Assembly (NCBI GenBank): GCA_016219965.1
Contig: JACRJM010000003.1
Location: 62,001-126,000, forward strand
From: Candidatus Schekmanbacteria bacterium
GTDB taxonomy: Bacteria; Schekmanbacteria; GWA2-38-11; J061
Direction: 5' to 3'
DNA length: 64,000 bases
The notes under the pieces are model-generated. The model ran no database searches and was not told the DNA's origin. It saw nothing but the letters and a program-made list of their open reading frames with translations. Each line of letters begins with the position of its first letter. Within the stretch, counting starts at the first letter, position 1. Shown piece after piece: positions 32,232-46,686 of this stretch. The translations under genes were made by a program, and so were the position numbers.

Positions 32232-32296
32232 AAGTATCACATTGTAATCTAACCTGAACCTAATTTAAGAGCTAACTGTTACTAAAGGAGGATGTT

Positions 32297-34996
32297 ATGT
32301 TGAAGAAGCGAAGTAAGGTGTCAGCAAAAAGGATGGGGGTTTTTCTGTTAATTTTCTTTTTTGCCTTTTCCTGTCTATTATTGACTGGAAATGAAGCAAG
32401 TGCAGCAGCGAAAAAAAATATTGTTGTGAAGATTAAAGCCTCATCAGCGGTAAAGAAAGGGGTAAGTGTTGAGGTTTCAGGAGAAAGTCTTGCAGAGCCG
32501 TTAACAAAAATCACTAATAAAGGTGGGACAGCAAAGTTCACGAAACTTGCAGCAGGGGAGTATACTATAACGCCTACCAAAACAGGATATTATTTTGTCC
32601 CCACATCAAAAACAATTACACTTGGCAAAAAAACCACAACAACAGTAAGCTTTACTGCTAAAAAATCACCGGCTGTTTCTTCAATATCTATTGACAACAG
32701 CGACGTAGAAACAAACGAAAGTCTCTCTGAAGATGTCACGGTTACAGTAAAAGACAGCAAGAGCAATGGGATTCTAAATAAAACCATAACTGCCGAAAGC
32801 TCAGACGCACTGGTCGCATCAGTATCTCCTTCTTCAAATACATCAGATTCTGATGGTGAAGCTTCATTCACTATCGAAGGTATTGCAGAAGGAAATGCAG
32901 TAATAACTTTCACAAGTGAAACAAAAACAGTAACGACATCTGTATCAGTACTTCCTGCAGACGCATCAATTAAATGGCAAACATCAGGCCATGCTGACTA
33001 TACTGCAGAAGCTTTTAACCACTGGAACAGTGATGGAGAAGTATCTTCAAGTTGTGCAAAATGCCACTCAAGCAGCGGGTTTCTTGATTACGCAGAAAAT
33101 GGAGAAGTGACTATTTCTCCGACAGTTGGCGAAGTAATTAACTGCCTTACCTGTCATGATGATGCTGCCATGGATTTGGAAACAGTTACATTTCCATCAG
33201 GTATGACAGTTACCAATCTTGGACATGAAGCAATATGCATGACATGCCATCAGGGACGTGAATCAAAGGTTAGCGTTGATGCTGCACTGGAAGGTATAGA
33301 AACAGACACAATATCATCAACGATCGGGTTTAAAAATATTCATTATTTCGCCGCTGGTGCAACGCTCTATGGGACACAGAGCAAGGGCGGATACGAATAT
33401 GACGGAAAGTTGTACCATGGCAAATTCCAGCATGTATCAGATGCTGATACCTGCATTGAATGCCATGACATGCATTCACTTAAGGTAAATGTTAATAAAT
33501 GCGCAGAATGCCATACAGATGTTACGAATGTTGAGGATCTCAAGGATATCCGCATGGCATCATCATCTCATGACTACGATGGCGATGGAAATATAACAGA
33601 AGGTGTATATTATGAAATGGTTGACTTGCAAGAAGCATTGCTCAGTGCAATCCAGGCTTATGCTACAATAACAGGAACTACGGCTATTGCATACGACGCA
33701 AACACCTATCCATATTTCATCATAGACACAAACGGTAACGGCATAGTGGATGCGGGCGAAACAAGCAAGTATAATGCATGGACACCAAACCTGATGAGAG
33801 CAGCTTACAATTATCAGGTAGCGCAGAAGGACCCGGGCGCATTTGCTCATAACTCAAAGTATATAATCGAGCTTCTCTATGATTCAATAGAAGCCCTCGG
33901 AGCAGATGTAAGTACATATACTCGCAATGACAGCGGGCATTTTGACCAGACTGGAATGCCTTTCAGGGATTGGGATCCGGAAGATCCTCTGCTTATCAAC
34001 ACCTCTACAGTTTCAAAATCATGCACACGTTGTCACACTACAGATGGATTCAAGTATTACATTGATCCGGATGGAGCCGACTATAGCGACGGCGCGTTAA
34101 AAACACAACCCATATCGTATGGGTTCGCCTGTGAAACCTGCCACACCAGCGATGGCTTCAAAGATGGAAGCTATCAAAGAGTATATGTTGAAAAAATAGT
34201 CTGGCCCGGTACAACGACAAACACAATAACAACAAGCAACAATGCTATAGACAGCGATCCAGATGATTCCTTCATCTGTATGAGTTGTCATAGAGGCAGA
34301 GAATCAAAAGCGACTATTGACGATGCTATTGAGAAAAATACTCTCTACGGCACAGCACTGTCCTTCAAGAATATTCATTATCTCTCTGCAGGTGCCACAG
34401 TATTTGGTACCGAAGCAAAGGTAGGATATGAATATGATAGCAAAGTCTATGCAGATCCCTTTACCCACTGGGGCGGAGATTCAGAGGGTATAGCAGCAAA
34501 ATGCACATATTGTCATGCTCTGAGTGCTGAAGAACACAGCTTCGAGCCCAAACTTACCACAACATGTACGGGATGTCATACTGAGGTAACTGGAAGCGAT
34601 ATTGAAACAATCCGCAAGAGCCGTACAACAGACTATGATGGCGATAGCAATACAACGGAGGAGCTTAAGGACGAAATAGCAACATTGAGTGCTGCGTTAT
34701 TTACAGAGATGCAGACAGTAGCTACAACCGCGGGCTTCCCGATAGCCTATGACGGCAGTGCATATCCTTACTTCTTCAATGACACTAACGGAAATGGTGT
34801 TGTTGACACAGATGAAGCTACTTCCGGCAACAAATATTCACATTGGACTGCAGCTCTGTTGAAAGCAGCTTTCAACTATCAGTACTCCCAAAAGGAACCG
34901 GGAGCATGGGCACACAACACGGATTACATAGCCCAACTTCTTATAGACTCAATTGAAGATCTTGGCGGTAATGTAAGCAGCTACAACCGTCCGTAA
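32297..34996 (+). CDS. Exported decaheme c-type cytochrome with Ig-like N-terminus and duplicated pentaheme modules
   Basis: The 899-residue protein has a signal peptide (1-37), two Ig-like beta domains (about 41-122 and 125-220) and ten CxxCH haem sites at Cys253, 283, 314, 386, 402, 576, 612, 661, 736 and 757. Residues 226-545 and 546-899 are tandem copies. Each has five hemes, a CM(T/S)CH(Q/R)GRES motif, an FKNIHY.(A/S)AGAT segment, an EF-hand-like DTNGNG(I/V)VD loop that should bind calcium, and a helical end with QK(D/E)PGA(F/W)AHN. It likely carries electrons at the cell surface. A GGAGG ribosome site precedes the ATG. No porin or other cytochrome gene is adjacent. Confidence 0.9.
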   Translation: MLKKRSKVSAKRMGVFLLIFFFAFSCLLLTGNEASAAAKKNIVVKIKASSAVKKGVSVEVSGESLAEPLTKITNKGGTAKFTKLAAGEYTITPTKTGYYFVPTSKTITLGKKTTTTVSFTAKKSPAVSSISIDNSDVETNESLSEDVTVTVKDSKSNGILNKTITAESSDALVASVSPSSNTSDSDGEASFTIEGIAEGNAVITFTSETKTVTTSVSVLPADASIKWQTSGHADYTAEAFNHWNSDGEVSSSCAKCHSSSGFLDYAENGEVTISPTVGEVINCLTCHDDAAMDLETVTFPSGMTVTNLGHEAICMTCHQGRESKVSVDAALEGIETDTISSTIGFKNIHYFAAGATLYGTQSKGGYEYDGKLYHGKFQHVSDADTCIECHDMHSLKVNVNKCAECHTDVTNVEDLKDIRMASSSHDYDGDGNITEGVYYEMVDLQEALLSAIQAYATITGTTAIAYDANTYPYFIIDTNGNGIVDAGETSKYNAWTPNLMRAAYNYQVAQKDPGAFAHNSKYIIELLYDSIEALGADVSTYTRNDSGHFDQTGMPFRDWDPEDPLLINTSTVSKSCTRCHTTDGFKYYIDPDGADYSDGALKTQPISYGFACETCHTSDGFKDGSYQRVYVEKIVWPGTTTNTITTSNNAIDSDPDDSFICMSCHRGRESKATIDDAIEKNTLYGTALSFKNIHYLSAGATVFGTEAKVGYEYDSKVYADPFTHWGGDSEGIAAKCTYCHALSAEEHSFEPKLTTTCTGCHTEVTGSDIETIRKSRTTDYDGDSNTTEELKDEIATLSAALFTEMQTVATTAGFPIAYDGSAYPYFFNDTNGNGVVDTDEATSGNKYSHWTAALLKAAFNYQYSQKEPGAWAHNTDYIAQLLIDSIEDLGGNVSSYNRP

Positions 34997-35015
34997 GATA
35001 CACAGCATAAACCAA

Positions 35016-35048
35016 AAGCCGGGTGCTTAAAAAGCATCCGGCTTTTTT
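35016..35048. terminator. Bidirectional rho-independent terminator
   Basis: A 13-bp stem AAGCCGGGTGCTT / AAGCATCCGGCTT with one G-U pair and a 3-nt loop is followed by a T-run on the plus strand. The upstream A-run gives a T-run on the minus strand. It ends both the cytochrome gene and the hem operon. Confidence 0.85.
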
Positions 35049-38497: not shown

Positions 38498-41400
38498 TTA
38501 AGATTTACCACGAAACTCCTTAGCCTGATGCACAAAAGCTTCGAGACGATTCTCTGAGCCTGACTCATCAATCCCATCGTAGGCTATGTTCAACCATGGA
38601 ATATTCCCGGAATCTTTGCTCAGCCTCTTAGATATGGCGGTAACCACTGTTCCCGGCAAACATGTGAATGGAATTGCATTTATAATCCCATTCAATCCTT
38701 TGTTTATATAATCTATAGCTTTTCCTACACTTAATACTGCTTCACCATCAAATGACGGGTCTATGTATTTGCGGCTTGAATCAATAAGCACATCCGTATC
38801 AGGTTCGCATCCGTTTTTTAAAAACCCTTCGAATGTTTTATAAATTTTATGTTCATGCGTTTTTTGAACACGGTCTTTAATTATACGTTTTATATATTCT
38901 ATCTTTTTTCCTCTTTCCGTATTGCGTACCTTATAGACATAGTTTGCGTAAAGGAACCACTCGCTTAGCGGAGCTACCCATGCCTCAGAGCCTAATGCTT
39001 CAATTTTTTTAACAAGTCCCTGATTCGCAAACCTGTTACTTCTTATATATATCTCTCCTACAATTCCAATCTTTGGCTTACTTCCTCTTCCATTGACCTT
39101 TATTGCCTCAAATTTTTCCCTGCAGTGATCTAATGCGGCAAGTATATCTCCCTTACATTTCATGACATTGCATACATATTTCAGGCAGTAATCGTACACA
39201 GCATCCGTTTCCCCTTTATTTACCTCGTATGGTCTTACCTGCCTTGCTGCCTTCTCAAGTACATCAATGGCTACAACTCCCTTCCATGCAAGAAGGTCAA
39301 AACCATTGCCGAACATGCTGTCTCCATAAGAATGCTGTGGCTCAAGGGAATAAATCGGAATATCTTCGTATCCGTTCTCATCGAGGAGAAGCCTCTGGAA
39401 CTGGTGATACTGGCCGAACCGGCATGGTCCTTCAGCGGATGGCATAAAGAATGCGATCTTTTCAGGAGTCAGCCCGGATTGCCTTATCGCCTTAAAAAGA
39501 TCTCCTGTAGTAAGTATGCAGGGATAACACTCCTTGCCTGAAGTATATTTTCTTCCAAGCTGGAGAGTTTGTCCGTCTGATTCTTCAACCACCTCAGCAT
39601 CAACACTGTTGGAATTGAATGCAGCCTTGATAGCATAGGCATGGTCTGTCATATTCGGAATGAAGATAGTACGGTTTCGCGATTTAAGATTTCTTATTAT
39701 TGTGGTCTTGAGATTCTCTACAGGCAGACTTACAGTCCTGTAATTGTTAAGGCTGTCAAGGAACGCTTCACATCGTGTGATTGCACCCGCATCTGCGCTG
39801 TGTTCGTCTATCTCAAGCTGAAGATATGGTTTCCCCTTCATCATATCCGCAAAGAAATGATTTATGAATGAATCAGGTCCGCACCCGAAATTTGTAAGAT
39901 AAACTGCAAAAAGATTCGGATGTGATTTTATATATTTTGCAGCGGCTAAAATCCTCTGACCGGATTTCCAGTACATATTGGGATGGTAATCAGATATGTC
40001 CACGTCATCTAAAGGAAGAAAATCCATGGGAATGGTCTTTACTCCCAAAGCACGGAGTTTCTTGGGAAGCCCCAAATTCACTCCTGAATCAAGACCGTTA
40101 TAGGAGCGGCTTACAAGAACCAGCGCCTTTTCATCAGGCAAAAGTGATTTTAATAATTCTGCGCCACTTTTTTTTATCATGTAATAGAAGCGCGATTGTA
40201 TATCTGCCGCGACACGATAAGCTCTTAAAGCGGAACCCGAATCAGCGCCGACACTTCTTCCAATGTCAATAAAAGTATTCTTTATGGATTTTTCGCCGGC
40301 CTGGAACCTGAAAATAGGCTGAAGAATCTTTTTCCCCGCAGAATCAATCCCTAGTGAAGCGTTTATTATATAAGGACTCGCCTGAACGTACGGACATGTA
40401 TGGTTTTCACAGTTCGTAGCCTTGTCTCTGTACATGCTTATAATGCTTGGGAGGAAAAGATAATCCATCTCTTTTTCGAGAAGGTCTATGACATGACCGT
40501 GGGCGACCTTTATAGGAAAACATGTTTCTGCCGCGACATTTTCAAGCCCGTTCTGGATAATTTTCTTGTTTGTCTGTGAAGAAAGTACAACCTCAAAACC
40601 AAGCTCTTCAAAGAAAGACTGCCACATGGGATAAAGCTCGAATGCATAAAGGATGCGCGGTATCCCGACTTTTTTGCCATTTCCCTTCTTCCCTGAGCCT
40701 TTATAAGAATTTAAAAGATGATTTTCCCGTTCTTCAAAGAAATCAGGCATATCATTCTTAACAATTTTTCTCTCTACATCAAACTTTTCACATCTGCTCC
40801 CGTAAAACAGGGGCTTTTCCCCATCAATGGTAACACGCCTGATTTCGCAGAGGTTTGAACAGTCAGAGCACTCAAAGGTCTTTGTTTCATAACGTCTCTT
40901 TGAAAGGTCAAATCCCTTGAATAAAGTCTTTTCTATATTGCTCTCAGCCGCAAGCATGGCAACACCTATTGCCCCTGTAACATCATGGTGCGGAGGAACT
41001 ATGATCTTTTTATCTACAACTTTTTCAAAAGCAGAGATAACCCCTTTATTGTAAGCTACACCCCCCTGAAAAAATATCTTGTTCCCTATCTTCCTGTTGC
41101 CTACTACGCGGTTCAGATAATTATAAACTATTGAGTAGCAGAGGCCTGCAACAATATCCTCAGTCTTTGTCCCTCTCTGTTGATGGTTTACTATATCGCT
41201 CTCGATGAAGACTGTGCAACGTTCCCCCATCTGAACCGGATTCTTGGAATGCAATGCAATCCGGCTGAATTCTTTTTTGATATCAACCTGAAGTTTTTCA
41301 GCCTGTTCTTCTATAAATGAGCCTGTCCCGGCCGCACAAACCTTATTCATTTCAAAATCAGAGACAACACCTCCGGAAAGGCTTATATATTTTGAATCCT

Positions 41401-42709
41401 GACCGCCTATTTCGAAGATTGTATCAACCTCAGGGTCTATTGCTGCAGCTGCACGCGCCTGAGCAGTTATCTCATTCCTTACTACATCTGCCCCGACAAA
41501 ATCTCCGATGAGATATCTGCCTGAACCTGTAGTACCTGCTCCGATCACTTCAACCTTATCCCCTACCTCGCCCGCAATCTCTGAAAGTCCCTGCCTTACA
41601 GCCTCGATAGGCCGGCCGGCAGTCATGAGATACCTTCTTGCCACCACATTAAAGTTCTCATCAATTGCAACAACATTGGTGCTGATTGAGCCAATATCTA
41701 TACCCAAATAGACCTTTACTTTCTCCCCTTTCCCATATCTGCTGAAATCATACGATTTTGAAGGATCATGGAGATAAACACTTTTTTCCATATCCAGCCG
41801 GGGGAGAGTCCCAACAGAAATAACATTTTTGTCCCGGCTGAATGCTTTAATCTTTTCAAGTCCTGTAAAAGAAAACTTTTCTCTCCCCTCTTCAATAAGT
41901 GCAAGTGCAGCACCAATAGCACCGGCTACAGAATGATGTTCATGTACTATAAGTTCCCCATCATTTAATCCCAATACATCAGTAAAAGCCTTTATCATCC
42001 CTCCATTGCTTGCAACCCCTCCCTGAAATGCAATCGGTTTTACGAACTCCTTGCCGCGGGCGATTGTACTTTTGAAATTCCTTGCGACAGCATAGCAAAG
42101 CCCCGCCACGATATCGTAATCAGGAGTTCCTATCTGCTGAAGATGTATCATGTCGCTTTTTGCAAAGACGCTGCATCTTCCGGCAATTCGAGGCGGGCAA
42201 CTTGATTTCATGGCAAGGCAGGCAAACTCGTCTTCTATGCTAATATTCAGCCGATTTGCCTGCTGGTCAAGAAATGAACCTGTGCCTGCTGCACATATGG
42301 TGTTAGTCGCAAAATCTTTTATTCTGGACCTTCCTGACAAATCTTTCTCAATAAGTATGAACTTGGAATCCTGTCCTCCCATTTCAATGACAGTATTTAC
42401 GTGCGGATAAAGGAACTCAGCCCCTTTTGCCTGGGCAATAATCTCATTTACGAAAAACCCTTCAAGGCAATTGTTTACTAGCCTTCCTCCTGCTCCTGTG
42501 GTGGCAATTGCTTTTATTTTTCCGGGTTTAAATTCTTCAACTGCGTCGCTTAGGACTGCGGTAGCTTCTTTTACCGGTTGACCATGAAACCTTCGGTAAA
42601 CAGTTTTTATCACTCTTCCGGAATTTAAATCAAAGACAGCAAGATTGACACTTATTGAACCTATATCTAGACCTATTACATATTCAGCGGAGCCATGAGC
42701 ATCAGCCAT
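38498..42709 (-). CDS. Giant BadF/HgdC-type activase with two ASKHA ATPase domains and dehydratase-like C-terminus
   Basis: This protein of about 1403 residues has two tandem actin-fold ATPase domains, starting near VIGLDIGSISVNLAVFD and LGIDIGSISTNVVAID. Each has its own CAAGTGSF loop, where Cys ligates a [4Fe-4S] cluster in HgdC-like activators. A Cys-rich linker (CSDCSNLCEIRR) leads to a DUF2229-type and 2-hydroxyglutaryl-CoA dehydratase-like region (KECYPCILTTGD). Such COG1924/3580/3581 fusions are widespread in anaerobes and poorly characterised. The likely start is the ATG at 42709, with GAAGGAG 8 nt upstream; a TTG seven codons earlier is possible. It precedes hemC by 44 nt. No dehydratase subunits lie nearby. 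Confidence 0.85.
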   Translation of the reverse strand: MADAHGSAEYVIGLDIGSISVNLAVFDLNSGRVIKTVYRRFHGQPVKEATAVLSDAVEEFKPGKIKAIATTGAGGRLVNNCLEGFFVNEIIAQAKGAEFLYPHVNTVIEMGGQDSKFILIEKDLSGRSRIKDFATNTICAAGTGSFLDQQANRLNISIEDEFACLAMKSSCPPRIAGRCSVFAKSDMIHLQQIGTPDYDIVAGLCYAVARNFKSTIARGKEFVKPIAFQGGVASNGGMIKAFTDVLGLNDGELIVHEHHSVAGAIGAALALIEEGREKFSFTGLEKIKAFSRDKNVISVGTLPRLDMEKSVYLHDPSKSYDFSRYGKGEKVKVYLGIDIGSISTNVVAIDENFNVVARRYLMTAGRPIEAVRQGLSEIAGEVGDKVEVIGAGTTGSGRYLIGDFVGADVVRNEITAQARAAAAIDPEVDTIFEIGGQDSKYISLSGGVVSDFEMNKVCAAGTGSFIEEQAEKLQVDIKKEFSRIALHSKNPVQMGERCTVFIESDIVNHQQRGTKTEDIVAGLCYSIVYNYLNRVVGNRKIGNKIFFQGGVAYNKGVISAFEKVVDKKIIVPPHHDVTGAIGVAMLAAESNIEKTLFKGFDLSKRRYETKTFECSDCSNLCEIRRVTIDGEKPLFYGSRCEKFDVERKIVKNDMPDFFEERENHLLNSYKGSGKKGNGKKVGIPRILYAFELYPMWQSFFEELGFEVVLSSQTNKKIIQNGLENVAAETCFPIKVAHGHVIDLLEKEMDYLFLPSIISMYRDKATNCENHTCPYVQASPYIINASLGIDSAGKKILQPIFRFQAGEKSIKNTFIDIGRSVGADSGSALRAYRVAADIQSRFYYMIKKSGAELLKSLLPDEKALVLVSRSYNGLDSGVNLGLPKKLRALGVKTIPMDFLPLDDVDISDYHPNMYWKSGQRILAAAKYIKSHPNLFAVYLTNFGCGPDSFINHFFADMMKGKPYLQLEIDEHSADAGAITRCEAFLDSLNNYRTVSLPVENLKTTIIRNLKSRNRTIFIPNMTDHAYAIKAAFNSNSVDAEVVEESDGQTLQLGRKYTSGKECYPCILTTGDLFKAIRQSGLTPEKIAFFMPSAEGPCRFGQYHQFQRLLLDENGYEDIPIYSLEPQHSYGDSMFGNGFDLLAWKGVVAIDVLEKAARQVRPYEVNKGETDAVYDYCLKYVCNVMKCKGDILAALDHCREKFEAIKVNGRGSKPKIGIVGEIYIRSNRFANQGLVKKIEALGSEAWVAPLSEWFLYANYVYKVRNTERGKKIEYIKRIIKDRVQKTHEHKIYKTFEGFLKNGCEPDTDVLIDSSRKYIDPSFDGEAVLSVGKAIDYINKGLNGIINAIPFTCLPGTVVTAISKRLSKDSGNIPWLNIAYDGIDESGSENRLEAFVHQAKEFRGKS

Positions 42710-42951
42710 AAAAATTGCTCCTTCACACAAAGAAAATCCAATACAATCTATTGATCTATCAACGCCATGGTGCTGATATTTTAAAAGGTTTGGAATAAAA
42801 TGCCAAAATAACCTTTAATTTTGTGAAATATTAATTCTATTTCAGAATCTGTCAAATAAAATAAGCCATCATTTTCAGAATGCTTGACAATATCTTTTCT
42901 ATTAATAGACTATAGCAATATTTTAGCAAAGGAAATAAGGAGAAGTTGATA

Positions 42952-43281: not shown

Positions 43282-43330
43282 TTGACAAGGCAACCTGATA
43301 TATATAATATGTGAGCATATATTCAAATAT
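43282..43330 (+). promoter_or_regulatory. Metal-repressor promoter with overlapping operator
   Basis: TTGACA (43282-43287), 17 nt, TAATAT (43305-43310) is a near-perfect sigma70 promoter. A 24-nt imperfect palindrome at 43307-43330 overlaps the -10 and predicted start; its core TGA-N8-TCA flanked by ATAT is the SmtB/CadC operator pattern. Autoregulation by the downstream gene product is the natural reading. Confidence 0.65.
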
Positions 43331-43337
43331 AACATAT

Positions 43338-43730
43338 ATGAAAAACATTAACCTTAAGCAGAATACGTTAATAGAGGCGGGAGAAATATCATGTGAAAAT
43401 CATGTTATAGACCGCAAACGTGTGGAATCCGTATCAAAACAGCTATTAAATGATACTGCGGCTATTGAGCTTGCGGAACTTTACAGAGCTCTCGGGGATG
43501 GAACGAGAGTTAAGATACTTTATACTTTATCTCTTGGAGAGTTCTGTGTCTGCGATATTTCAAGCCTTCTCGGTATGAGTTCATCTGCTATCTCTCACCA
43601 GCTCAGGATATTGAGATCCCTGCGTCTTGTTAAAAACAGAAGGGCCGGGAGGGTAATTTATTATTCACTCGATGATGAGCATGTTGTAAGGCTTTTTGAA
43701 GAAGGGCTAAAGCACATCGAACACAGATAA
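43338..43730 (+). CDS. CadC/SmtB-like metal-responsive repressor (ArsR family)
   Basis: This winged-helix repressor of about 130 residues releases DNA on binding metal. It has both classic metal sites: alpha3N Cys pair in GEFCVCDISSLL, and alpha5 pattern D-x-H-x10-H-x2-H in DEHVVRLFEEGLKHIEH. The recognition helix reads SSSAISHQLRILR. The Cys pair suggests Cd/Pb/Zn. A GTG at 43311 would lengthen the protein, but it lies inside the operator and upstream of the expected transcript start, so the ATG at 43338 is chosen; the leader is about 20 nt without a clear ribosome site. The P-type ATPase gene follows after 94 nt. Confidence 0.9.
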   Translation: MKNINLKQNTLIEAGEISCENHVIDRKRVESVSKQLLNDTAAIELAELYRALGDGTRVKILYTLSLGEFCVCDISSLLGMSSSAISHQLRILRSLRLVKNRRAGRVIYYSLDDEHVVRLFEEGLKHIEHR

Positions 43731-43762
43731 TAAAATAGATAAAAAAATTTTTCTTTTAAATA

Positions 43763-43776
43763 TGAAAGATTGTTCA
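43763..43776. promoter_or_regulatory. Possible second ArsR-type site before the ATPase gene
   Basis: TGAAAGATTGTTCA has TGAA/TTCA arms with the same TGA-N8-TCA spacing as the two operators above. It lies 49 nt before the P-type ATPase start. AT-rich flanks make a chance match possible. Confidence 0.3.
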
Positions 43777-43824
43777 ATTAAGCACTTTGTTGAATTTTTA
43801 AAAACCGAATAAGGATAAGAAAGA

Positions 43825-46686
43825 ATGTCATCCATTAAAACAAATTCAAAACATATAGAAGTAGTTACTAACCCAATTTCTGCATCTGACTGTTCACGCT
43901 GCGAAAATCGCTTAAGAGAGAAACTTCATACAATCCGGGGTATCGATGAGCTGAGTTTTCTTAAAGACACCTCCCAGGTAAAAATATCGTATGATCCAAA
44001 TCTGATTCAGGTGGATACCATAAGAGAGATTGTAAAGAAAGAAGGAGCTCAAATTGACAGCCGTTTCAGGCACGAAGACCTTGAGCTCACTGGTCTTGAC
44101 TGCCCGGACTGCGCCTCAAAGGTTGAAAAATCCATAAACAACATGAAGGGCATTGAGTGGTGTTCGGTAAATTATGCAACCTCGAAAATGTTCGTCGAAT
44201 TTATGGGCGACACTGTGTCACTTTCAGAGATAACAAGCGCTGTACATTCCTTCGGTTATGACATACGTGATGCCGGCACTTCAACAACAGACAGGAAGAT
44301 GGTTTTCAATATAAGAGGCATGGACTGTGCTGATTGTGCGGCAAAGCTTGAAAAGCAGATGAACAATCTTGACGGAGTGCATGAAGTCTGGGTTGATTTC
44401 AATCTTTCCAGAATGACGGTAAAATATAAGGAACTGCCTGGAATGATAGACAGGATAATACATCTTGTCGACAAAGCCGGCTATTCGGCAATTCTGCTAA
44501 ACGAAGACACCGGAAAGAGCCTTTCCATAATCTCATGGATTAAAAAAGACCGGAAAGCAATATCCACCTCAATCTGCGGGCTCTTCATTCTTCTTGGATA
44601 TATGGGACGGTTCACTCCTTATAATATGCTTGAGTATATTTTCTTCGGCCTTGCAATGCTGGCAGGCGGCTTTTATACCGCAAGGGCAGGATTCACCGCT
44701 TTAAGATATAAAACAATTGATATGAACTTTCTGATGTCTATCGCTGTTGCAGGTGCTGTAGCCATAGGTGAATGGGAAGAAGCCGCAATGGTAGTTTTTC
44801 TCTTCTCTCTTGGTAATGTCCTTCAAAACTACACAATGGATAAGACCAGAAACTCCCTTAAATTCCTGATGGATCTTTCTCCAAAGGAGGCAAGAATCAA
44901 AAAGAGAGAAACCATAATCTCTGTTCCGGTTGCGAACGTGAACATAGCGGACATCATGATAGTACTGCCGGGAGAAAAAATCGCCATGGACGGAATAGTA
45001 ACCTCAGGGGAATCAGAAGTAAATCAAGCCCCAATTACAGGTGAATCCATTCCGGTTGTTAAGATTGAGGGGAACGAGGTTTTTGCAGGAACAATAAACG
45101 GCTCTGGAATGATGGAGGTAAGAATTACCAAACTATATGAAGAGACAACTCTTTCAAAAATAATTCACCTTGTAGAAGAGGCACAGGCTCAAAAAGCCCC
45201 ATCCCAGCTTTTTGTAGATAAATTCGCAAAATATTATACGCCTGCTGTTATAATAACAGCTACCCTCATAGTCGCCTTGCCAGTATTGTTATTTGGTGGT
45301 TCATTTAATGACTGGTTTTATAAAGGATTGATGCTGCTTGTCATATCCTGCCCCTGCGCCCTTGTGATTTCAACACCTGTATCCATTGTATCCGCAATAG
45401 GAAATGCATCACGCAACGGAGTTCTTATCAAAGGTGGCGCATACCTCGAGGAAGCAGGGAAAATAAATGTCGTGGCTTTTGACAAGACCGGCACCCTTAC
45501 AAAAGGACATGCCGGGATTACTGATATAATAGGTCTTAACGGATTAAGTGAAACTGAAGTCCTTCAGTATGCTGCATCAATTGAACAGCGCTCAGAGCAT
45601 CCCATAGGCAGGATAATAAAGATGGAAGCAGATGTAATGGGATTGACACTTTTCCGCGTATCAAAATCAAAGTCGCTCACAGGAAAAGGAGTTGAATCTG
45701 AGATAAACGGAAAACTTTACTATGTCGGAAGCCATCGCCTTGCAGACGAGACAGGGATTGAGCACACAAGAAGCGAAGAAGAGCTCATGGAAGAACTTGA
45801 ATCGAGCGGGAAAACTGTGCTTCTCGTTGCTGACCAGAAAAAACTCATCGGGATAATTGCTCTTCGTGACATGATAAGGGAAGAAAGCAGACATGCGATT
45901 GCAGAACTTAAATCAGCAGGGATTAAAAGAATTATAATGCTTACCGGGGATAACCGGAAAACTGCAGAAGTCGTTGCAAAAGATCTCGGCATAGATGAAT
46001 TCAGGGCACAGCTTCTTCCGGAAGACAAAGTAGATGCTGTAAAAGAGCTTAGAGCCCTGTACGGCAATATTGCTATGGTAGGAGAAGGGATAAATGATGC
46101 ACCTGCACTTGCCGCATCTGATGTTGCAATAGCTTTGGGCGTTGCTGGGACTGATACTGCACTTGAGACAGCAGACATAGCGCTCATGTCCGATGATATG
46201 TCAAACATTCCCTTTACGCTCAAACTCAGCAGAAAAGCTCTTGGTATAATAAAAGGTAACATAGCTTTTTCCCTTATTGTAAAGGCGGCATTCTTTGTTC
46301 TTGTATTCTCAGGGCTTTCAAATCTCTGGATGGCCGTGCTTGCAGACACAGGGACATCACTTATAGTTATCGCTAACGGTATGAGGCTTCTGAGATTTGG
46401 TTCAAAAAGAAAGAACATCTCCGAGCTTGAACATGCCCATTCACATGAAAGCGAAGAGACTTGCGGATGCGGGCAGGACCACGATCATGAACATGATGAA
46501 GATGAACACGAACATATGGAAGCGTCAGCATGCGGTTGCGGACATGACCATCACGAACATCATGAAGAGCATGACCACGAAGATGAACATACTCATAAAG
46601 AATATTGGGAAGAGGATGAGCACAAAGATGCTCATTATTCAGAGTGCGGATGTGGACATGACCACGAACACGGGCATAAGCATTAA
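43825..46686 (+). CDS. Zn/Cd/Pb-exporting P1B-type ATPase with three HMA domains and His/Cys-rich tail
   Basis: This 953-residue ZntA/CadA-like pump is larger than usual. Three N-terminal HMA domains carry Cys pairs at 23/26, 93/96 and 168/171. Membrane helices follow, with the CPC ion site at 509-511, TGES actuator loop, phosphorylated Asp553 in DKTGTLTKG and nucleotide-site SEHPIG at 590-595. The hinge reads GEGINDAP instead of GDGINDAP. After the last helix, residues 866-953 form a tail rich in His, Asp and Glu with three CGCG(Q/H)DH blocks that should bind metal. It follows the metal repressor by 94 nt and is probably under its control. Confidence 0.93.
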   Translation: MSSIKTNSKHIEVVTNPISASDCSRCENRLREKLHTIRGIDELSFLKDTSQVKISYDPNLIQVDTIREIVKKEGAQIDSRFRHEDLELTGLDCPDCASKVEKSINNMKGIEWCSVNYATSKMFVEFMGDTVSLSEITSAVHSFGYDIRDAGTSTTDRKMVFNIRGMDCADCAAKLEKQMNNLDGVHEVWVDFNLSRMTVKYKELPGMIDRIIHLVDKAGYSAILLNEDTGKSLSIISWIKKDRKAISTSICGLFILLGYMGRFTPYNMLEYIFFGLAMLAGGFYTARAGFTALRYKTIDMNFLMSIAVAGAVAIGEWEEAAMVVFLFSLGNVLQNYTMDKTRNSLKFLMDLSPKEARIKKRETIISVPVANVNIADIMIVLPGEKIAMDGIVTSGESEVNQAPITGESIPVVKIEGNEVFAGTINGSGMMEVRITKLYEETTLSKIIHLVEEAQAQKAPSQLFVDKFAKYYTPAVIITATLIVALPVLLFGGSFNDWFYKGLMLLVISCPCALVISTPVSIVSAIGNASRNGVLIKGGAYLEEAGKINVVAFDKTGTLTKGHAGITDIIGLNGLSETEVLQYAASIEQRSEHPIGRIIKMEADVMGLTLFRVSKSKSLTGKGVESEINGKLYYVGSHRLADETGIEHTRSEEELMEELESSGKTVLLVADQKKLIGIIALRDMIREESRHAIAELKSAGIKRIIMLTGDNRKTAEVVAKDLGIDEFRAQLLPEDKVDAVKELRALYGNIAMVGEGINDAPALAASDVAIALGVAGTDTALETADIALMSDDMSNIPFTLKLSRKALGIIKGNIAFSLIVKAAFFVLVFSGLSNLWMAVLADTGTSLIVIANGMRLLRFGSKRKNISELEHAHSHESEETCGCGQDHDHEHDEDEHEHMEASACGCGHDHHEHHEEHDHEDEHTHKEYWEEDEHKDAHYSECGCGHDHEHGHKH

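Follow-up and report, generated by a model that had tools for sequence, protein, structure and literature searches.

The gene under study (positions 32297–34996, forward strand) lies within a 64,000-nt window, the whole stretch of DNA that was analysed, and is an open reading frame with an ATG start that encodes an 899 aa decaheme cytochrome; all features of the gene and its flanks given below are on the same strand. The sequence displays an AGGAGG ribosome-binding site 5 nt upstream of the ATG (32286–32291) and, directly 3' of the gene, a strong hairpin resembling an intrinsic terminator (35014–35046). The gene is probably monocistronic, since the flanking genes, which by eye look thioesterase-like on the upstream side and hemB-like on the downstream side, are both on the opposite strand. 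No second multiheme gene is present in the window. Further along, and again named by eye, are a 1410 aa ORF with a doubled CoA-dehydratase-activase-like region (BcrAD/BadFG type) and a C-terminal extension (38498–42730, reverse strand), and an ArsR-like regulator and, after it, a heavy-metal P-type ATPase-like protein whose long tail is rich in His and Cys (43311–46686, forward strand). The decaheme gene is isolated in its own genome, with no respiratory genes adjoining; an Omp85 is present, no MtrB/PioB-type porin was found in this genome, and NapC-type genes are located elsewhere, on contig C10. The same contig (G000:C10) encodes an OcwA-like nonaheme cytochrome of 505 aa (L085 1303–2820, reverse strand), which adjoins an ORF with 12 CxxCH motifs, while NapC/NirT-type multiheme genes are found about 10–13 kb away from it; this region is a possible extracellular electron transfer cluster.

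At its N terminus the decaheme protein carries a predicted signal peptide (residues 1–37, 32297–32407; sequence and model), with a hydrophobic helix at residues 11–28, a possible cleavage site near ASA-A and no clear lipobox. Two beta domains follow, in agreement with the first-pass annotation: a CarboxypepD_reg-like domain (residues 46–122, 32432–32662) and an Ig-like domain of the Big_1 type that is also similar to the S-layer protein SbsC (residues 124–219, 32666–32953). Both were identified by Pfam, in the predicted model, in which beta strands are visible, and by Foldseek, which matched only this stalk when the full-length model was used; the Pfam matches (CarboxypepD_reg at 48–120 and Big_1 at 128–215, each with E 6e-7) fall slightly below the cut-off. 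In NCBIfam, the C terminus of the anammox S-layer protein Kustd1514 aligns with residues 46–218. Both the signal peptide and beta domain 1 (P0001 residues 12–151) recur on several further large proteins encoded by genomes that belong to the same order (G001, G002 and G003), which suggests that this shared front end may be surface-targeting or S-layer-related.

Two homologous pentaheme modules in tandem

Residues 226–545 (module 1, 32972–33931) and 546–899 (module 2, 33932–34993) were delimited by self-alignment, conservation and the structure model, together with Foldseek for module 1. Each contains five CxxCH motifs, and the protein has no others besides these ten. In module 1 the sequence reads CAKCH at residue 253 (heme 1, 33053–33067), CLTCH at 283 (heme 2, 33143–33157), CMTCH at 314, followed by QGRES (heme 3, 33236–33250), CIECH at 386 (heme 4, 33452–33466) and CAECH at 402 (heme 5, 33500–33514). 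The motifs of module 2 are CTRCH at 576 (heme 6, 34022–34036), CETCH at 612 (heme 7, 34130–34144), CMSCH at 661, followed by RGRES (heme 8, 34277–34291), CTYCH at 736 (heme 9, 34502–34516) and CTGCH at 757 (heme 10, 34565–34579). Self-alignment of the halves had been set as the check on the proposed repeat, and it shows that they are homologous over their whole length, with 40% identity in an end-to-end alignment (227 bits, E 8e-77). When every CxxCH is masked the alignment still scores 184 bits (E 3e-60), as compared to at most 23.1 bits in 100 shuffles, and the strongest similarity is observed in the tails past the last heme motif (51% identity, E 4e-45). Since the similarity persists after masking and peaks in the heme-free tails, the tandem duplication is real and is no artefact of the heme motifs. 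The motifs previously claimed for both halves, namely CH(Q/R)GRES, FKNIHY, DTNGNG and QK(D/E)PGA, are all present; the earlier plan of the module had, however, missed a second calcium-type loop and five extra invariant histidines per module, as well as the relationship to NrfA and OcwA.

Those histidines stand out in an alignment of 106 modules, in which exactly five non-motif histidines per module are 93–100% conserved, as are the five heme motifs. In module 1 they are His232, His349, His379, His393 and His518. His349 of the FKNIHY motif (33341–33343), between hemes 3 and 4, is invariant, as is Tyr350, and the alignment places His694 (34376–34378) as its FKNIHY counterpart in module 2. Each module also displays two calcium-type loops, DYDGDGxxxE and, in an insert ahead of helix 2, DTNGNG. 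The first loop of module 1, D426-Y-D-G-D-G...E435 (33572–33607), is also found in OcwA-like nonahemes, while the second, DTNGNGIVDAGE (residues 477–488, 33725–33760), is inserted between bundle helices 1 and 2; by sequence and alignment, the corresponding loops of module 2 are DYDGDSNTTE from residue 779 (34631–34666) and DTNGNGVVDTDE (residues 829–840, 34781–34816). AlphaFold2 models, computed without hemes, reach a pLDDT of 94.8 and a pTM of 0.92 for the module alone and a pLDDT of 82 and a pTM of 0.75 for the full protein; the three C-terminal helices are present in both. In each unit the N-terminal part would wrap the five hemes, and the three-helix bundle with its two calcium-type loops would close it.

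Repeated modules, in copies of two or three, could also be expected of a subunit of a cytochrome filament, or nanowire, the assembling unit suggested in the first-pass annotation. We consider this very improbable: the module folds alone with high confidence in AlphaFold2, no nanowire cytochrome (OmcS/OmcE/OmcZ/AvECN) is among its 19 Foldseek matches at E<=10, and OmcS, which is present among the PDB chains searched, is only a weak heme-motif match by sequence.

Relatives and age of the pairing

A single scan of 84,980 genomes, seeded by short peptide patterns so that absence from it means little, returned 53 relatives. They come mostly from Anaerolineae and other Chloroflexota and then from Myxococcota, while single relatives are labelled Planctomycetota (Anammoxibacter), Desulfuromonadales, Actinomycetota and Rhodobiaceae. 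Two modules are present in 49 of the 53, one module in a single protein (L055), and three proteins are cut by contig ends; two further genomes carry three-module proteins (L064 and G190/L077). The copy-number search proposed in the first-pass annotation has thus returned genomes with one, two or three modules, and many uncultured bacteria share the two-module plan. Of 386 genomes searched with the profile, 28 gave a match at E <= 1e-10, in many cases through distant single-module proteins.

We also computed a tree of 75 modules, in which first copies for the most part group apart from second copies, whatever the phylum. The copy label changes 4–5 times, as compared to about 25 times in shuffled data (none of 500 shuffles as low); the exceptions are the Desulfuromonadales protein L052 and the three-module proteins. 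As first copies and second copies cluster apart across phyla, the pairing is old. Several individual proteins depart from the common plan. The three-module proteins, with 15 hemes, are encoded at L064 195–3320 and L077 628–3969 (both forward strand), the latter with GxxGxx collagen-like repeats before the modules. The single-module protein, with five CxxCH (L055 7821–8978, forward strand), belongs to a Rhodobiaceae-labelled genome and possibly reflects horizontal transfer or a binning error. The Desulfuromonadales protein (L052 7806–10592, forward strand) has two modules and three extra CxxCH, and both its modules cluster with second copies.

The spacer in front of the modules varies among the relatives. 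It is a short linker in most Chloroflexota, often behind a lipobox-like start, whereas other relatives have different Ig or PKD domains, and L052 and L077 have collagen-like repeats. What is conserved is the module pair and not the spacer. A lenient pattern detects lipobox-like starts in 33 of 56 sequences, and together with the signal peptide and the Ig/S-layer-like domains of the present protein they make the surface-type, secreted location put forward earlier plausible. In Chloroflexota the relatives often adjoin genes for nonaheme cytochromes, cytochrome b561, a NapC/NirT-type heptaheme and NrfD/FeS proteins, neighbours that fit an electron supply from the quinone pool.

Kinship of the modules with OcwA and NrfA

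Neither Pfam nor NCBIfam has a model that covers the module, and in this respect the statement that no named family has its exact plan holds. The view that the module is without known kin was not borne out, as a fold search, profile comparisons on CxxCH-free sequence and the order of the histidines all lead to the NrfA/OcwA superfamily. When the module was compared with the PDB by Foldseek, the only supported fold match was OcwA (6I5B), returned with both chains at a modest E-value (5e-3, probability 1.00) and a TM score on the query just below 0.5 (0.48). Using the module profile we then gathered a set of OcwA-like nonahemes, L085 of the same genome included, against which the profile aligns across the whole module (E 5.6e-34); the set in turn matches OcwA itself (E 1.1e-30) as well as cytochrome c554, octaheme nitrite reductase and NrfA.

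Because heme motifs alone inflate profile scores, we relied on the CxxCH-free tail. The module matches the OcwA-like set there with E 2.2e-14 and the OcwA-like set matches NrfA with E 3.4e-8, while shuffled-column controls give 0.05–0.6. Direct comparison of the module and NrfA tails is not significant (E 0.33), and the kinship between the two runs via the OcwA-like intermediates. A match between the module and NrfA profiles over the heme region (E 7.5e-6) was discarded, given that a control set of unrelated nonahemes, whose match to the module is confined to that region, reaches 5.8e-11 there. Independently, the order of invariant histidines and hemes, H C C C H H C H C H, is the same in the module set and in NrfA, represented by 12 sequences drawn from genomes with the PF02335 model. 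The fold match, the CxxCH-free profile comparison and the histidine order support the placement of each module as an NrfA/OcwA-type pentaheme unit within one superfamily.

Ten hemes in two groups of five could equally recall a distant decaheme of the MtrC/OmcA/MtrF type, each module corresponding to a pentaheme domain II/IV. With the whole protein, PF22113 does exceed its threshold (39.8 vs 30 bits), and it matches 30 of 48 relatives. However, the match is patchy and confined to short stretches around the heme motifs (39 of 176 positions at best), module 1 alone remains under the cut-off (27.7 vs 30), no beta domain separates the modules and Foldseek returns no MtrC-family structure. We dropped the MtrC-like module after the module Foldseek search and regard this reading as largely refuted and its being correct as extremely improbable. 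Pfam matches to cytochrome C7/c3/CIII models were rejected as local CxxCH matches.

Hemes 1 and 6, possible role and comparison with known systems

In NrfA, four hemes have His/His ligation and heme 1, beneath an Arg, a Tyr and a His, forms the open active site (PMC8840924), while in OcwA a His-His motif overlies the heme that opens the pentaheme half, heme 5 (PMC6703420). His349 sits in the same interval, between hemes 3 and 4, as the catalytic His of NrfA. By position, His232, His379, His393 and His518 would be the four distal ligands, giving four bis-His hemes per module, and His349/694 would be either a catalytic-type His over an open heme 1/6 or the sixth ligand there. Hemes 1 and 6 may therefore be open substrate sites or, if His349/694 ligate them, the protein would contain ten bis-His hemes, have no active site and act purely as an electron conduit or charge store. 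The latter explanation shares location and superfamily with the preferred one and differs in the chemistry of hemes 1 and 6. It agrees with the presence of exactly five conserved non-motif histidines for five hemes in each module, and with the large multiheme neighbours of the relatives; yet in NrfA the same five-His order corresponds to four distal ligands and one catalytic His, so that the histidine count alone does not show heme 1 to be bis-His. For this reason we dropped the argument that five extra histidines prove all hemes bis-His, the NrfA set having the same five, and the conduit remains a tentative proposal.

An open heme also raises the possibility of a doubled NrfA-type enzyme that, at hemes 1 and 6, reduces (or oxidises) a small soluble compound, for instance nitrite, hydroxylamine or some other oxyanion. 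The position of His349/694 in the NrfA catalytic-His interval and the invariance of His349 and Tyr350 are in line with this, and nitrite and hydroxylamine are among the compounds that OcwA can reduce (PMC6703420). The nitrite turnover of OcwA is nevertheless only about 1 per minute (PMC6703420), GR(E/A)S takes the place of the Tyr found behind heme 3 in NrfA, CxxCH binds heme 1, and the neighbours of the relatives resemble electron-transfer cytochromes and not a substrate-specific operon. A soluble-substrate enzyme is thus unlikely. We also tentatively suggest that the tandem could be a covalent counterpart of the NrfA homodimer at the cell surface, a doubled catalytic unit in which a His-Tyr pair overlies each of two open hemes (1 and 6), and that it could serve phyla both with and without an outer membrane as a terminal reductase outside the cell.

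In broader terms, the protein is reasonably likely to be a secreted, probably cell-surface decaheme cytochrome whose two tandem NrfA/OcwA-superfamily pentaheme units pass electrons to an extracellular acceptor. Its most likely role would be to exchange electrons with the outside or to act as a terminal reductase. Spacer domains that differ between lineages, here Ig/S-layer-like, would hold the module pair away from the cell; electrons from the quinone pool would arrive by way of periplasmic multiheme cytochromes and would leave to a mineral, a shuttle or a partner, as OcwA passes them to its acceptors. With it the NrfA/OcwA line, where a common ancestry unites reductases of soluble nitrogen and sulfur compounds with those of extracellular acceptors, gains a widespread decaheme architecture, but not a new class of system. 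The doubled plan is conserved in Anaerolineae. Porin-cytochrome complexes were not found in MHC-rich Anaerolineales genomes (PMC7399161), and in these cells electron exchange with the surroundings is poorly understood. The family supplies named, testable candidates, including one from the cultured Longilinea arvoryzae, and searches of open-licence papers returned none that describes a protein with a doubled NrfA/OcwA pentaheme.

Among known systems, the pentaheme cytochrome (PHC) family of cable bacteria and Geobacter (ExtKL, GSU2801; PMC11976967) likewise combines a pentaheme with an Ig-like domain and has a proposed function in extracellular electron transfer. It is set apart by its description as kin of T. 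tepidum c552 and AvECN (PMC11976967), neither of which matched the module in the PDB fold search. MtrC/OmcA/MtrF (PF22113) have in common with the present protein ten hemes in two pentaheme groups, beta domains and a surface role; in contrast, their beta domains (I and III) are interleaved with the heme groups, which is not the case here, there is no Foldseek match and the similarity is limited to the heme motifs.

NrfA (PF02335) has the same five heme motifs, five invariant non-motif histidines in identical order and C-terminal helices, whereas the decaheme protein has two units per chain, CxxCH at heme 1, stalk domains, and GR(E/A)S in place of the active-site Tyr behind heme 3 (CHVEYY in the NrfA set); PF02335 gives only E 0.022 over about 80 residues of the decaheme protein, with no significant full-length match. 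OcwA of Thermincola potens (PDB 6I5B) has been characterised by experiment as a terminal reductase at the cell surface. It is extracellular, and its NrfA-like pentaheme half has a C-terminal three-helix bundle and a His motif over its first heme (PMC6703420), as in the modules. It is, however, a nonaheme in which a c554-like tetraheme precedes one pentaheme, while here the tetraheme front is missing, the pentaheme is doubled, a YPYF/DTNGNG insert is present and FKNIHY replaces the His-His of OcwA. The OcwA-like nonaheme L085 of the same genome shares the DYDGDG loop, the helices and a VHN histidine, and its pentaheme part is a full-length profile match, although it has a single pentaheme unit behind a c554-like tetraheme. 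Altogether, these comparisons support the view that the decaheme protein is neither NrfA proper, OcwA proper nor MtrC/OmcA, and that it is kin of NrfA and OcwA at the level of the superfamily.
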